Shown: piece by piece, positions 2,096-8,635 of the stretch
Layout: the number at the start of each line of letters is the position of its first letter
Numbering within the stretch: position 1 is the first letter of the stretch
From: Comamonadaceae bacterium
Lineage (GTDB): Bacteria > Pseudomonadota > Gammaproteobacteria > Burkholderiales > Burkholderiaceae_C
Length of the DNA stretch: 36,831 nucleotides
Reading direction: 5' to 3'
NCBI GenBank assembly: GCA_023259355.1
Contig: JAHFQI010000014.1
Span: 1-36,831 of the forward strand
Notes under the pieces: generated by a model
What the model saw: the letters and a program-made list of their open reading frames with translations, nothing else
Told to the model about the DNA's origin: nothing
Databases searched by the model: none
Position numbers and translations under genes: made by a program

Positions 2096-2107
2096 CTTGG
2101 ATACAAG
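2096..2107. promoter_or_regulatory. Candidate operator CTTGGATACAAG (near-palindrome), copy 1
   Basis: Exact reverse complement of the 12-mer at 8602-8613; both lie 7 bp after the TTGC of a sigma54-like element. Confidence 0.6.
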
Positions 2108-2113
2108 ACAGTG

Positions 2114-2129
2114 CGCAATATGTGTGCCA
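2114..2129 (-). promoter_or_regulatory. Predicted sigma54 (-24/-12) promoter TGGCAC-ACATA-TTGCG for the BMP transporter operon
   Basis: Matches TGGCAC-N5-TTGC exactly on the minus strand; predicted +1 near 2103, leader about 72 nt to the ATG at 2031. Confidence 0.75.
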
Positions 2130-2520: not shown

Positions 2521-3906
2521 TCAGAGCTCCACGGGTTTGACGCCGGCGACGCCGGACTGCTGCAGGACCCAGGCGACGCGCAAGGCCAGGTCCTCGCGCC
2601 AGGGCGCGGCGATCACCTGCACGCCGATCGGCAGGCCGCCGGTTCCCGCGGGCCACATCGGCGCGGCCACCACGGGGCAGCCCATGAATGACACCGGCTG
2701 GGTCAGCAAGCCCAGCGACGGCCGGCAGGGCTGGCAGCTGCCGTTGATGTCGATCCACTCCGTGCCGATGGCGGGCGCGGCCACAGGCGTGGCGGGCGCC
2801 AGCAGGATGTCCCAGTGCTGGAACAGGGCATTGATGCGGTCGCGGTAAACGCGCCGGAACCGCTGCGCCCGCACGTACCACGCAGCGGGTTGCAGCGCGC
2901 CCGCGATGAAGCGGTCCACCGACAGGGGTTCGAATTCGTCCGCGCGGGTCCGCAAATCCGCCAGGTGCAGGCTGCCGCCTTCGCTGGCCGTGATGATGAA
3001 CGCGGCGGCCCGGCCCAGCGCGGCGTCGGGCCAGCTCACTTCGGCGCGGGCCCCGAGGGTGCTCGCCGCCAGCGCCACGGCCTCGCGCGCGGGCGGCGTC
3101 GCGTGGTCGTGGAAATAGCCGTCCAGCACACCCACGCGCAAGCCGGCCAGGCCGAGTTGCAGGTCGGCCGCCACGGGCTGCAGCGCCGTGGCATGGCAGC
3201 CGGGGTCGAGCGCGTCCGGTCCCTGCAGGGCGTCGTAGCTCCAGGCCAGGCCTTCGACGCAGTCGGACAGCGGGCCGAGGTGGTCGATGCTGTGGACGAA
3301 CGGCTCGCTGCCGCGCCGCGACAAGCGGCCGAACGTGGGTTTCAGGCCCCAGACCCCGCACAGCGAGGCGGGCACGCGGATCGAGCCATTGGTGTCGGAG
3401 CCGAGCGCGAGGCCCACCTGCCCCGCCGCCACCGCCGCCCCGCTGCCGCCGGAGGAGCCGCCGGCGCTGCGGCCAAGGTCGTGCGGGTTGTGGCAGGGGC
3501 CGTCATGGCTGTTTTCGGTGGTGAAGCCGTAGGCGTATTCGTCCATGTTCAGCGCGCCCACCAGCACCGCGCCGGCCGCCGCCAGGCGCTGCACCAGCAC
3601 GGCGTCGCGCGCCGCGGGTGCATGGCCGCGGTTGATGCGCGAGCCCGCGCGCGTGACGACGCCCTCGATGTCGAACAGGTTCTTCACCGCGTAGGGCACG
3701 CCGGCCAGTGGCGACAACGCCTCGCCGGCGGCGCGGCGGGCATCCACCGCGGCGGCCTCGGCGCGGGCGCGCGCCAGTGTGCGGTCGGTGAAGGCGTTGA
3801 CGCGGGCATCGGTGGCCTCGATGCGCGCCAGGCTGTGGTCCAGCAACTCGCGGGCGCTGAGTTCCTTTGTCGCCAGCGCACGGGACAGGTCCGCAAGCTG
3901 CTTCAT
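2521..3906 (-). CDS. atzE: AtzE family amidohydrolase (amidase signature enzyme; 1-carboxybiuret hydrolase / HpxY type)
   Basis: Amidase signature [47 protein letters not shown]; start [26 protein letters not shown] at 3906; downstream of an AtzG-like ORF with a 4-nt overlap. Confidence 0.88.
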
Positions 3907-4130
3907 GACGACGCGCCCCCGTCGGCGGTGCCCGGGAAGGGGGCCGGACGGTAGATTTCCGCCGGTTCGTCCTCGGGCCGCAGCGGCACGCCGTCCAGCA
4001 AGGCCGCCAGCGCGGCCGTGCGCGCCAGATGCTGCGCCACCCGCTGCGCGCGCGCCGCCTCCAGCGGCAGCGCCAGCAGGGCGGCGCTGGCTTCCACGTA
4101 GGCCAGAAGGTCCGCGTCGGTCGGGCTCAT
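3903..4130 (-). CDS. atzG: AtzG-like / HpxX-like small subunit (DUF4089-type)
   Basis: 75 aa MSPTDADLLAYVEASAALLALPLEAARAQRVAQHLARTAALAALLDGVPLRPEDEPAEIYRP; 4-nt overlaps with the genes on both sides. Confidence 0.82.
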   Translation of the reverse strand: MSPTDADLLAYVEASAALLALPLEAARAQRVAQHLARTAALAALLDGVPLRPEDEPAEIYRPAPFPGTADGGASS

Positions 4131-4948
4131 CGGCGGACCTCGCGTTGAAAAATCTCCAGGCTGCGTTTCTTGGCCTGGATGAAGCCGGGCTCGGAGAGCG
4201 TCTCCACCGTGCGCGGACGGGCGTCGGCATACGGCAGGATCTCGGCCACGCGGGTGGGGCGCTTGGTCAGCAGCAGGACCTGGTCAGCGAGGTACACCGC
4301 TTCTTCGAGGTCGTGCGACACCAGCAGCATGGTGGTGCCGGTCTGCATGAACACCTCCTGCAGCTTTTCGCGGATGAACAGCGTCATCTCAAAATCCAGC
4401 GCCGAGAACGGCTCGTCCAGGAACAGCACCTCGGGCTTGGGCGCGAGCGCCCGCATGATCGACGCCGTCTGCTGCTGGCCGCCCGAGAGTTCGTAGGGGT
4501 AGCGATTGAGGTCGAACCTCACGTCGAAGGAGGCCACGAGTTCGGCCATGCGGCGGTCCACCTCGGCCTTGGACCGGCCCGCCAGCTTGAGCGGGTAGGC
4601 GATGTTGTCGATGGTGCGCATCCAGGGAAACAGCGCGTCGCGGTAGTTCTGGAAGACGTAGCCGATCCGCGTGTCTTTCAGCGACTTGCCGTCGAACAGG
4701 ATCTCACCCGCGTCGATCGGCACCAAGCCCGCGATCATGTTGATCAGCGTGGACTTGCCGCAGCCGTTGGGTCCGAACACCGAGACGATCTTGTGTTTGG
4801 GGATGTCGAGGTTGAAGTCCTCGTACAGCGGCCAGCCGGCGAAATGCTTGGTCAGGCCGCGCACGGTGATATGGGTGCCGGCCGGGCCGGGCTGGAAGGC
4901 CGGCACGGGCACGTCGGCCACGACAGGGGCGTTCAACACCGCGCTCAT
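4127..4948 (-). CDS. ABC transporter ATP-binding protein (nitrate/sulfonate/taurine-type)
   Basis: Walker A GPNGCGKST, signature LSGGQQQ, Walker B VLFLDEPFSALD; start MSAVLNAPVVADVPVPAFQ at 4948. Confidence 0.93.
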   Translation of the reverse strand: MSAVLNAPVVADVPVPAFQPGPAGTHITVRGLTKHFAGWPLYEDFNLDIPKHKIVSVFGPNGCGKSTLINMIAGLVPIDAGEILFDGKSLKDTRIGYVFQNYRDALFPWMRTIDNIAYPLKLAGRSKAEVDRRMAELVASFDVRFDLNRYPYELSGGQQQTASIMRALAPKPEVLFLDEPFSALDFEMTLFIREKLQEVFMQTGTTMLLVSHDLEEAVYLADQVLLLTKRPTRVAEILPYADARPRTVETLSEPGFIQAKKRSLEIFQREVRR

Positions 4949-5787
4949 CGTCCGCTCCAGTGGACGATGCGGCGTTCGACCATCAAGAAGAGAATGTTCA
5001 GGGCGTAGCCGAGCGCCCCGGCGGCCAGGATGGACGCGTACATGTCGCGCACGTTCATGACCTGCTGCGAGTTGATGATGCGGTTGCCCAGCCCGCTGTC
5101 GGCGCCGATGAACATCTCCGCGACGATCACGATGACCAGCGCCATCGAGACGGCCGAGCGCAGCCCGACGAAGCTCGGCTGCAGGCTCTCCCAGACCAGT
5201 ACGTCCTTGAACACCTGCCAGCGCGAGGCGCCCATGACGCGCGCCGCCATCACGCGCTGCTTGCGTGCGTTGATCACGCCGTAGGCGCTGTTGAACACCA
5301 CGATGAGCAGGGCGCCGAAGGCGGCGATGGCCACCTTGTTGACATCGGAGACGCCGAAGATCATCAGGAACAGCGGGATCAGGGCCGACGAAGGCGTGGA
5401 GCGGAAGAAGTCGATCAGGAACTCCACGCTGCGGTAGGCTTTTTCGTTGCTGCCCAGCAGCACGCCCAGTGGCATGCCGACGGCGGCCGCGATCAGGAAG
5501 GCCTGGACCGTTCGCCACACCGTGACCATGAAGTCCCCGAGCAGGGGGCCGCCCGCCAGGCCGCTGGCCAGCGCGCCAAGCGCATCGGCCGGCGCGGGCA
5601 GCAGGATGGCCTTGATGAAACCCAGGCGCACGACCAGATCCCAGACGATAAAGAGCGCGAGCGGCCCGATGAAGGGCAAGGCCTTGCCCCATGCCGCCGG
5701 GCGCGGCGCAGCGGCCGGCGCGGCGGCGGCCGGCGGCGCCCAGGGCTGGACCGGCGCCGTCAGGATGGAAGGTGTCGGGTCCGCCAT
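4945..5787 (-). CDS. ABC transporter permease (SsuC/TauC-type)
   Basis: MADPTPSILTAPVQPWAPP...; EAA-like loop AARVMGASRWQVFKDVLVWESLQPSFVGLR; 4-nt overlap with the ATPase gene. Confidence 0.92.
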   Translation of the reverse strand: MADPTPSILTAPVQPWAPPAAAAPAAAPRPAAWGKALPFIGPLALFIVWDLVVRLGFIKAILLPAPADALGALASGLAGGPLLGDFMVTVWRTVQAFLIAAAVGMPLGVLLGSNEKAYRSVEFLIDFFRSTPSSALIPLFLMIFGVSDVNKVAIAAFGALLIVVFNSAYGVINARKQRVMAARVMGASRWQVFKDVLVWESLQPSFVGLRSAVSMALVIVIVAEMFIGADSGLGNRIINSQQVMNVRDMYASILAAGALGYALNILFLMVERRIVHWSGR

Positions 5788-5789
5788 GC

Positions 5790-6809
5790 TCAACCCTTGT
5801 AGAGCATGGAATCGACCATGAGCCGCGACGCGAAGATGCCCTTCTCGGCGAACAGGTCGAAGAACTTCTGGAAGTGCGCCACGTCGGCCGGCGTGAATTC
5901 GTTGTACAGGGTGTACGCGGCCAGCGGCACCTCGCCGGTCAACGCGCCTTCGATGGCGGTGTAGCCCTTGAGGTACTGGCGCGCTTCGGCGGGCTTGGCA
6001 CGCACGTAGCTCACGCCCTTGCCATAGGCGGTGATGAATTTTTTCGCTTCGCCGGGGTACTTCTTGATGAAGGCCGCGGTGAGGGAGGCCGAGCCGCCAA
6101 ACCACGGCGCCAGCGGATCGCCAAGCACGTATTTCGCGATCACGCCGGCTTCCAGCACCCGGGTGGTACCGTTCAGGCGCCCGATCGTGCCGGTCGGCTC
6201 CAGGGTGTAGCAGCCGTCGAGCTGGCCTGCGGCCAGCGCCGCCACGTGCTGGCCGATAGGCAGCTCCACCACCGTGGCACCGGTGGCGCCGCCGCGCTCC
6301 AGCACGGTCTTGGCCAGCGTCACGTTCTGGATGCCCGGGCCGGAGCCGACGCGCTTGCCCTTGAGGTCGGCCATGGTCTTGGCGCTGCTGCCGACCGGCA
6401 CGATGACCTCGTCCAGCACGTTCTTCACGTTGCTCGGGTTCGAGCAGAAGATCTTGAACGAGCCGGGTGCGGCGATTTCGCCGACGGCGATGTTGGCCGA
6501 GCCGGTGCCGTTGGCGCTGCCGTCGCAGCGGTCGGACAACATGCCTTCCATGATCTGCTGGGCGCCGGCGAACTTGAGCGCTTCCACGTTCAGGCCAGCT
6601 TCCTTGAAGTAGCCCAGCTCCACCGCCGCGTAGAACGGCAGGCCGGCGGCGATGGGCCAGTAGCCGATGCGGATCTTCGGGCCGGTTTGCGCGCGCAACA
6701 GGGCCGGTGAACCGAGCAGGCCCAGGCCGCCCAGCGCGGCGCCGGTCTGGATCAGTTGCCGGCGCGTGGGGGCCGGCGTTGCCGGCGTCAGGGATTCAGG
6801 TGCGGTCAT
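5790..6809 (-). CDS. ABC transporter substrate-binding protein (NMT1/SsuA-like)
   Basis: 339 aa; KIRIGYWPIAAGLPFYAAVELGYFKEAGLNVEALKFAGAQQIMEGML; N-terminal signal-like segment RRQLIQTGAALGGLGLLGSPALLRAQ. Confidence 0.92.
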   Translation of the reverse strand: MTAPESLTPATPAPTRRQLIQTGAALGGLGLLGSPALLRAQTGPKIRIGYWPIAAGLPFYAAVELGYFKEAGLNVEALKFAGAQQIMEGMLSDRCDGSANGTGSANIAVGEIAAPGSFKIFCSNPSNVKNVLDEVIVPVGSSAKTMADLKGKRVGSGPGIQNVTLAKTVLERGGATGATVVELPIGQHVAALAAGQLDGCYTLEPTGTIGRLNGTTRVLEAGVIAKYVLGDPLAPWFGGSASLTAAFIKKYPGEAKKFITAYGKGVSYVRAKPAEARQYLKGYTAIEGALTGEVPLAAYTLYNEFTPADVAHFQKFFDLFAEKGIFASRLMVDSMLYKG

Positions 6810-6855: not shown

Positions 6856-8586
6856 TCAGGCCGCGCCGGCCTTGAGCGCGGCGATGTAGGCACGCCAGCC
6901 GCCGTAATCAGAAATGTCCGTGGCACCTTGCAGCGCCTGCGCTTCGCACAGGAAGCCCTGCACGCTGCTGCCGTCGGCCAGTTCCAGCGTGCCGATGCCC
7001 AGCGGCGCCGGGATCATCGCGACGAACGAACCGTAGTGCTCGACCGGCATGTCCCAGACTTCCAGCGCGATGGCGGCGCCCTGGCCCGGTGCGACGCGCA
7101 GCAGGCCGGGTTTGGGCGGCACCGTGCCTGGCAGGGCAAAGAAGCGGTAGTCCGGCGCCGTCCGGGCCTCGCGCACCAGCGTGGCGCCGCGCTCGGTCAG
7201 CTGGCTGTTCAGCGGCATGCCCGACAAGTGGGCGCCGACCACCGCCACCTTCACCGTGGCGCCGGTGTGCAGGCCCCGGATCGGCTGGGGTTCCGGCAAG
7301 GGCTCGCCGGTGGCCCCCTGCGCCAGCCCCGTGGCATGGTGGTAGCGCTGGCCGAGTTCCGCGAGCTGCCAGTCGCTGCCGCAAGGGCCGACCAGGGTGA
7401 TGCCGAAGGGCAGGCCGTCCGGGCGCAGGCTGCTGGGCACCGAGATGGCCGCGTAGTCCAGCAGGTTGACGAAGTTGGTGTAGGCCCCCAGGTTGCGGTT
7501 GAGCGCCACCGGGTCCTCCTGCATCTGCGCGATGGTGTAGTGCGTCGGCGCCGTGGGCACCAGCAGCAGGTCCATCTTTTCCCACAGGGCCGCGGCCTGC
7601 TGGCCCAGCGCCCGCAGCCGGGTTTGCGCGTCGTACAGGTCGGCGGCGCTGTAGCCGCGTCCGGCGGCGATGATGCTGCGAACCGGCTCCATGACGTCGC
7701 GCTCGTGGGCGTCGAAGAAGGGGCGGATGGCGGCGTAGCGCTCGGCCACCAGGGCGCTGTCGTACAGCATCGCGGCGGCCTGCGCCAGCGGGCCATAGTC
7801 GATTTCCACGGCGGTGCCACCCAGGGCCTCCAGCCGGGCAACGGCCTGCGCGAACGCCGTCTCGGCCAGCGCATCCCCGAAGAACGAGAGCGGGCGTGGA
7901 ATGCCAAAACGGAAGTTCCGCGCGAGCGGCCGGGCGGCCAGCGGCAGGGCACGGGAGTACGGGTCCTGCGCGTCGTGGCCCAGCGCCGCCTCCAGCACCT
8001 TGACGGCCATGGCGACGCTGCGCGCGAAGATGGAGACGCAGTCCACGCTCTGGGCGGCGGGCACCACCCCACGGGCGCTGATCAGCCCTTTCGAGGGCTT
8101 GAGGCCCACGATGTTGTTCAGGCCGGCGGGTACGCGGCCCGAGCCGGCCGTGTCGGTGCCCAGCGCGAAGTCCACCTGCCCGGTGGCCACGACGTAGGCC
8201 GAGCCGGAGCTGGAACCGCCCGAGACATAGGCCGGGTTGAAGGCGTTGGGCACGGCGCCATACGGCGAACGCGTGCCGTTGAGCCCGCAGGCGAACTGGT
8301 CCAGGTTGGTCTTGCCGAGCAGGGATGCACCGGCATCGAGCAGGCGCCGCACCACAACGGCGTGGTCCGTGGGCAGGTAGGCAAAGGCGGGGCAGGCGGC
8401 CGTGGTGGGCAGCCCGGCGACGTCGATGTTGTCCTTGACGGCAAAGCGCAAGCCGTCCAGACAGCCCGGCTTCTCCAGTGAGATCGGCTGGGGCGGCCGT
8501 GCGAGCCAGGCAGGCTCCGCGGTGTCGTCGCGCGGCGCCACGGGCGCCGGGTTGACCAAGGATTCAGAAGCGAGGGGTTGCACCAC
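6856..8586 (-). CDS. atzF: Allophanate hydrolase (AtzF type)
   Basis: Amidase domain (VSGGSSSGSAYVVATGQVDFALGTDTAGSGRVPAGLNNIVGLKPSKG) plus C-terminal allophanate-hydrolase domain. The ORF track starts at TTG 8619, but that lies upstream of the predicted sigma54 +1; GTG at 8586 or 8583 is preferred. Confidence 0.88.
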   Translation of the reverse strand: MVQPLASESLVNPAPVAPRDDTAEPAWLARPPQPISLEKPGCLDGLRFAVKDNIDVAGLPTTAACPAFAYLPTDHAVVVRRLLDAGASLLGKTNLDQFACGLNGTRSPYGAVPNAFNPAYVSGGSSSGSAYVVATGQVDFALGTDTAGSGRVPAGLNNIVGLKPSKGLISARGVVPAAQSVDCVSIFARSVAMAVKVLEAALGHDAQDPYSRALPLAARPLARNFRFGIPRPLSFFGDALAETAFAQAVARLEALGGTAVEIDYGPLAQAAAMLYDSALVAERYAAIRPFFDAHERDVMEPVRSIIAAGRGYSAADLYDAQTRLRALGQQAAALWEKMDLLLVPTAPTHYTIAQMQEDPVALNRNLGAYTNFVNLLDYAAISVPSSLRPDGLPFGITLVGPCGSDWQLAELGQRYHHATGLAQGATGEPLPEPQPIRGLHTGATVKVAVVGAHLSGMPLNSQLTERGATLVREARTAPDYRFFALPGTVPPKPGLLRVAPGQGAAIALEVWDMPVEHYGSFVAMIPAPLGIGTLELADGSSVQGFLCEAQALQGATDISDYGGWRAYIAALKAGAA

Positions 8587-8601
8587 TTTAAAGCATCCAA
8601 T

Positions 8602-8613
8602 CTTGTATCCAAG
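8602..8613. promoter_or_regulatory. Candidate operator CTTGTATCCAAG (near-palindrome), copy 2
   Basis: Exact reverse complement of 2096-2107; overlaps the predicted +1 of the atzF promoter. Resembles TTGTATACAA-type GntR/FCD operators with one mismatch. Confidence 0.6.
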
Positions 8614-8619
8614 TTGCAA

Positions 8620-8635
8620 TGCAAGTGACGTGCCA
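8620..8635 (-). promoter_or_regulatory. Predicted sigma54 promoter TGGCACG-TCAC-TTGCA for the atzF operon
   Basis: Exact match to TGGCACG-N4-TTGCA on the minus strand. Confidence 0.82.

Follow-up and report, generated by a model that had tools for sequence, protein, structure and literature searches.

Predicted sigma-54 promoters with a start-site GntR-type operator before atzF and a BMP-family transporter operon in a Comamonadaceae bacterium

Repressors that act over a sigma-54 promoter are already known, with HutC and AtzR as examples. HutC is a GntR-family protein of the HutC/UTRA subfamily. For AtzR of Pseudomonas sp. ADP, Porrua et al. reportedly described in 2009 an AtzR-repressed, NtrC-activated promoter, PatzR, which is a sigma-54 promoter without upstream activator sites at which the repressor competes. 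In Pseudomonas, the region that HutC protects at hutU overlaps the sigma-54 site and has a TGTA-N2-TACA core (PMC12977541). Triuret and biuret operons encoding TrtA, BiuH, and AtzF are presented for Herbaspirillum and Rhizobium in the retrieved passages of PMC7948467, and a gntR gene is drawn beside biuH of nitrifiers in those of PMC12625717. NtrC control has been predicted for atzF of Rhizobiales (PMC5343134).

The locus presented here resembles the HutC system in that a GntR repressor would act over a sigma-54 promoter in nitrogen-related catabolism (PMC12977541), the repression being predicted from sequence in our case; it differs in that HutC responds to urocanate, whereas the linked regulator here is of the FCD type and its targets are biuret/triuret genes. 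With PatzR it shares the cyanuric-acid/biuret pathway, a sigma-54 promoter without upstream sites, and a repressor, here a predicted one, at the promoter; AtzR, however, is LysR-type and PatzR drives a regulator gene, whereas here structural operons are driven and the regulator is GntR/FCD. The enzymes of the TrtA-BiuH-AtzF operons share one neighborhood in both cases, here as seen in relatives, but the retrieved passages of PMC7948467 and PMC12625717 give no promoter or operator, unlike the present locus. In the literature searched, mostly outside subscription journals, no description of GntR/sigma-54 control of biuret genes was found, nor any use of this architecture by an FCD regulator for biuret/triuret genes. 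The papers found cover the enzymes and not their control; the present analysis predicts a coherent biuret/triuret regulon with a named regulator, operator, and start sites.

The window is the whole stretch of DNA analyzed, 36,831 nucleotides that make up one entire contig (C38) of a Comamonadaceae assembly of 3.82 Mb in 236 contigs, estimated as 88% complete. On the minus strand, rsmI is followed by a first promoter and by atzF, encoding allophanate hydrolase (6856–8586; TIGR02713, 774.8 bits), for which the start is taken as GTG at 8586, where relatives read ATG-GTG-CA. An ABC transporter (4127–6809) comes next, consisting of an NMT1-type substrate-binding protein (5790–6809), a permease (4945–5787), and an ATPase (4127–4948). 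The genes for an AtzG-like subunit (3903–4130; PF13318), an AtzE-family amidase (2521–3906; PF01425; TIGR02715, 700 bits), and an AtzH/HpxZ-like protein (2145–2519; PF11533, NF033625) lead to a second promoter, past which the first gene encodes a BMP-family (PnrA-like) ABC substrate-binding protein (910–2031; Pfam PF02608). The last gene, an ABC permease (BPD_transp_2, 3–908; Pfam PF02653), is truncated by the contig end. In relatives the BMP operon goes on with a second permease, a biuret hydrolase (NF050097, 413.7 bits against a cut-off of 370), an ATPase, a second cysteine hydrolase, and finally a GntR/FCD regulator. The second cysteine hydrolase is triuret-hydrolase-like, its closest structure being PDB 6XIX (308.9 bits), presumably the entry for TrtA, the triuret hydrolase of PMC7948467. 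Neither biuH nor trtA was found in this 88%-complete assembly, nor was an orthologue of the regulator (best match 31% identity); the contig stops ahead of the place expected for biuH, trtA, and the regulator gene.

The two promoters contain the same 34-nt module, TGGCAC-N5-TTGC-N7-CTTGKATMCAAG. The copy before BMP reads TGGCAC-ACATA-TTGC-GCACTGT-CTTGTATCCAAG on the minus strand from 2129 to 2096, base for base as the first-pass annotation had given it, and the atzF copy reads TGGCAC-GTCAC-TTGC-ATTGCAA-CTTGGATACAAG from 8635 to 8602. That annotation had further described the two 12-mers as exact reverse complements that begin 7 nt after TTGC behind unlike 7-mers, and both sequences bear this out. 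The module occurs exactly twice in the window, with no further match there at up to three mismatches and none in 100 dinucleotide shuffles at the same tolerance; an exact TGGCACN5TTGC is likewise confined to these two places in the window. Across the 3.82-Mb assembly CTTGKATMCAAG is found three times, and the third occurrence (CTTGGATCCAAG, contig C113 at 6896) was set aside as unrelated, as it lies within a reading frame and has no such promoter.

Each copy is best read as a sigma-54 promoter with its predicted start inside a GntR-type operator. The -24/-12 elements lie at 2115–2129 before BMP and at 8621–8635 before atzF, with GG and GC exactly 10 nt apart in both copies and invariant in orthologues, and the genome encodes rpoN (PF04552, 220 bits). 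By convention the GC of TTGC is placed at -13/-12, which puts the predicted starts at about 2103, 12 nt past the -12 C, and 8609. These positions fall inside the 12-mers at 2096–2107 and 8602–8613, the predicted GntR/FCD sites, so that each operator would span about -4 to +8 and overlap the core promoter or start.

Phylogenetic footprinting, which the first-pass annotation had proposed, strongly supports a functional promoter module composed of the -24/-12 element and the operator at fixed spacing. The family genomes, 401 in all, were searched with TGG, TTGC, and the operator as the only fixed parts; 33 of them yielded 34 matches, the reversed control yielded none, and the free -24 bases were CAC or CAT in all but one match. 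The surroundings were read for 31 matches: 27 stand before atzF, two before BMP, one before an NMT1 gene, and one is unrelated (L029, with TGGCCC). When spacings of 0 to 20 nt were allowed, the two elements occurred jointly in 51 of 54 atzF orthologues, 48 of them at exactly 7 nt, and in 31 of 79 BMP orthologues, 28 of them at exactly 7 nt; the rows are related, and these counts are not independent events. The annotation had named orthologous regions lacking both elements as evidence against function; such regions are found in part for BMP and clearly not for atzF. Information content drops sharply just upstream of the -24 box. An order-wide scan of 250 genomes added eight matches besides the window genome, in other families, six of which are near atzF or BMP orthologues (L124, L125, L127, L128, L129, and L132, the last adjoining a GntR/FCD gene). 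The spacing is not absolute, being 8 nt in a few atzF copies, while in the BMP promoters of Ideonella, Roseateles, Sphaerotilus, and Albitalea the operator abuts the -12 element or shares its C. In each of these arrangements the operator overlaps the core promoter or the start, a constant that is consistent with steric repression.

At one locus (L013, module at 1501) the module and an atzF-like leader (ATGGTGCG) stand immediately before the NMT1 gene, the arrangement that a deletion of atzF downstream of its own promoter would leave.

The likely repressor of the module is a GntR protein of the FCD family whose gene is the final one of the BMP operon in relatives, as holds for nearly all Comamonadaceae loci where the flanking sequence extends far enough. 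The operator is a short palindrome, and in relatives its half-sites switch from CTTG to CTGG in step with a Gln/Glu change in the recognition helix of the linked regulator. Of 60 scored sites that go with a Gln in SRTPVRQAL, 59 have TTG or ATG half-sites; of the seven that go with a Glu, six have one or more TGG/CCA half-sites, L107 being the exception. This covariation is evidence that the linked GntR is the cognate protein, to be taken with caution since the Glu group is small. We consider it unlikely that the operator instead binds an activator, or another GntR or other regulator encoded outside the BMP operon. GntR paralogues are many (17 weak matches in this assembly) and the cognate protein is a putative one, which leaves room for such a factor; but a site that covers the predicted start is an unusual place for a sigma-54 promoter activator, and another regulator would have to be squared with a linked GntR that is conserved and whose recognition helix covaries with the operator.

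The first-pass annotation took the BMP copy to split the cluster into two transcription units, which is supported in part. An operon boundary is less well borne out, as the -24 box begins 15 nt past the atzH stop, a simple scan of 1900–2600 detected no terminator, and many relatives have no BMP copy. The gap between atzH and BMP is measurable in 64 loci, 21 with a module (median 107 nt) and 43 without (median 55 nt); in the latter BMP comes after atzH mostly at short distance. An added internal promoter plus read-through from the atzF promoter is the more likely arrangement, and the second copy is best seen as kept or gained by some lineages and absent in others. It is quite improbable that only the atzF module functions and the BMP copy is a relic or a recent copy devoid of promoter activity. 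In favor of this reading, about half or more of the BMP orthologues, the closest ones included, lack the second copy, and some Variovorax keep the -24/-12 element with a decayed operator. Against this, both elements of the BMP copy in the window are intact at consensus, the 28 orthologues with 7-nt spacing keep both elements while flanks and spacer diverge, and a separate module precedes BMP at loci with unlinked or divergent clusters (L109, L127, L128, and L129). The Variovorax loci (L080, L084, L086, and L088) retain GGGCAC-N5-TTGCAC upstream of BMP with CCTGTAACGGAG in place of the operator, which indicates that the two elements can be lost separately. Short motifs do arise individually by chance, but a chance coincidence, a sigma-70 promoter, or an RNA structure is barely credible given the empty shuffles and reversed controls, the many genera with the module, and the lack of any sigma-70-like site in 1900–2600 and of any Rfam match.

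From the modules, their targets, and the linked regulator we infer, with good confidence, that each copy is a sigma-54 promoter in which a substrate-specific GntR/FCD repressor has its operator at the start site. The RpoN holoenzyme would bind TGGCAC-N5-TTGC and be fired by an enhancer-binding ATPase, a presumed activator, under nitrogen limitation. When a biuret-type inducer is lacking, a GntR dimer on CTTGNNNNCAAG would block holoenzyme binding or melting, and the inducer would release the dimer from the operator. The atzF promoter would then drive atzF, the NMT1-type transporter, atzG, atzE, and atzH, and the second copy would act as an internal promoter from which the BMP transporter operon gains additional or independent expression; since this operon encodes the GntR regulator itself in relatives, a negative autoregulatory loop may result. 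The ligands suggested earlier were biuret, allantoin derivatives, oxalurate, and uracil; biuret, triuret, or a derived intermediate is favored because the BMP operon of relatives encodes a biuret hydrolase and a triuret-hydrolase-like enzyme, and allantoin, oxalurate, and uracil are less so. In the simplest reading, a biuret-type ligand lifts the repression at the start and a sigma-54 activator conveys the nitrogen signal. Such a design could explain how a cell might express these genes only when nitrogen is short and the substrate is present, and would provide a compact and testable promoter that responds to biuret-type compounds, which are fertilizer impurities.

NtrC is a candidate for the activator. 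The genome contains ntrC, and no exact NtrC site (GCAC-N7-GTGC) is within reach of either promoter. NtrC-like scores upstream of atzF orthologues were near those of shuffles, and the slightly higher scores for BMP copies were not counted, as the scanned DNA codes for AtzH and the rows compared are related. The NtrC control predicted for Rhizobiales atzF (PMC5343134) has nitrogen control in common with the present reading and favors NtrC, although sites are predicted there and none was found upstream here. In B. cenocepacia, loss of ntrC by mutation made growth on biuret better, not worse (PMC5491218), which does not favor NtrC. An unbiased dyad search upstream of the promoters returned no convincing activator site, and conservation stops at -24. 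Its top dyad, GCTA-N9-TAGC, was rejected, as it occurs at varying positions in a few loci, mostly Polaromonas; the instances upstream of atzF in L044, L046, L051, L053, L069, and L014 are probably a dispersed repeat.

The atzF leader contains a further conserved element, GGATGC (8593–8598, minus strand), which may be an outer operator arm or part of the ribosome-binding region. It is nearly invariant in the atzF leaders of relatives. It mirrors the bases past the -12 GC about the operator center, giving GCATC-N4-CTTGNNNNCAAG-N4-GATGC, with 76% of outer-arm positions at atzF paired as compared with 47% for the next center. The BMP copies have no right outer arm. Compensating changes between the atzF arms were sought; the columns hardly vary and covariation is uninformative.

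In another Burkholderiales family, two loci (L130 and L131) carry TGGTAT-N5-TTGC-N7-ATTGTATCCAATT at about position 1501, beside a purine-catabolism cluster with HIU hydrolase, a xanthine-dehydrogenase-type small subunit, and an amidohydrolase, which suggests that the module architecture serves a second regulon. A broader proposal is possible but doubtful: a dedicated FCD repressor would be embedded in sigma-54 promoters needing no fixed upstream activator site; at atzF it would recognize the longer dyad GCATC-N4-CTTG-N4-CAAG-N4-GATGC, which takes in the -12 GC with its left arm, and some bases would thus be contacted by both sigma-54 and the repressor; and the -24/-12-plus-7 geometry would be reused with another half-site before the purine-catabolism genes of L130 and L131.

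In Rhodoferax lacus the GntR gene is closely followed by a gene of the Crp/Fnr family, and a third operator-like site, CTTGTATTCAAG (L083, 17103–17114), lies near the start of the latter.
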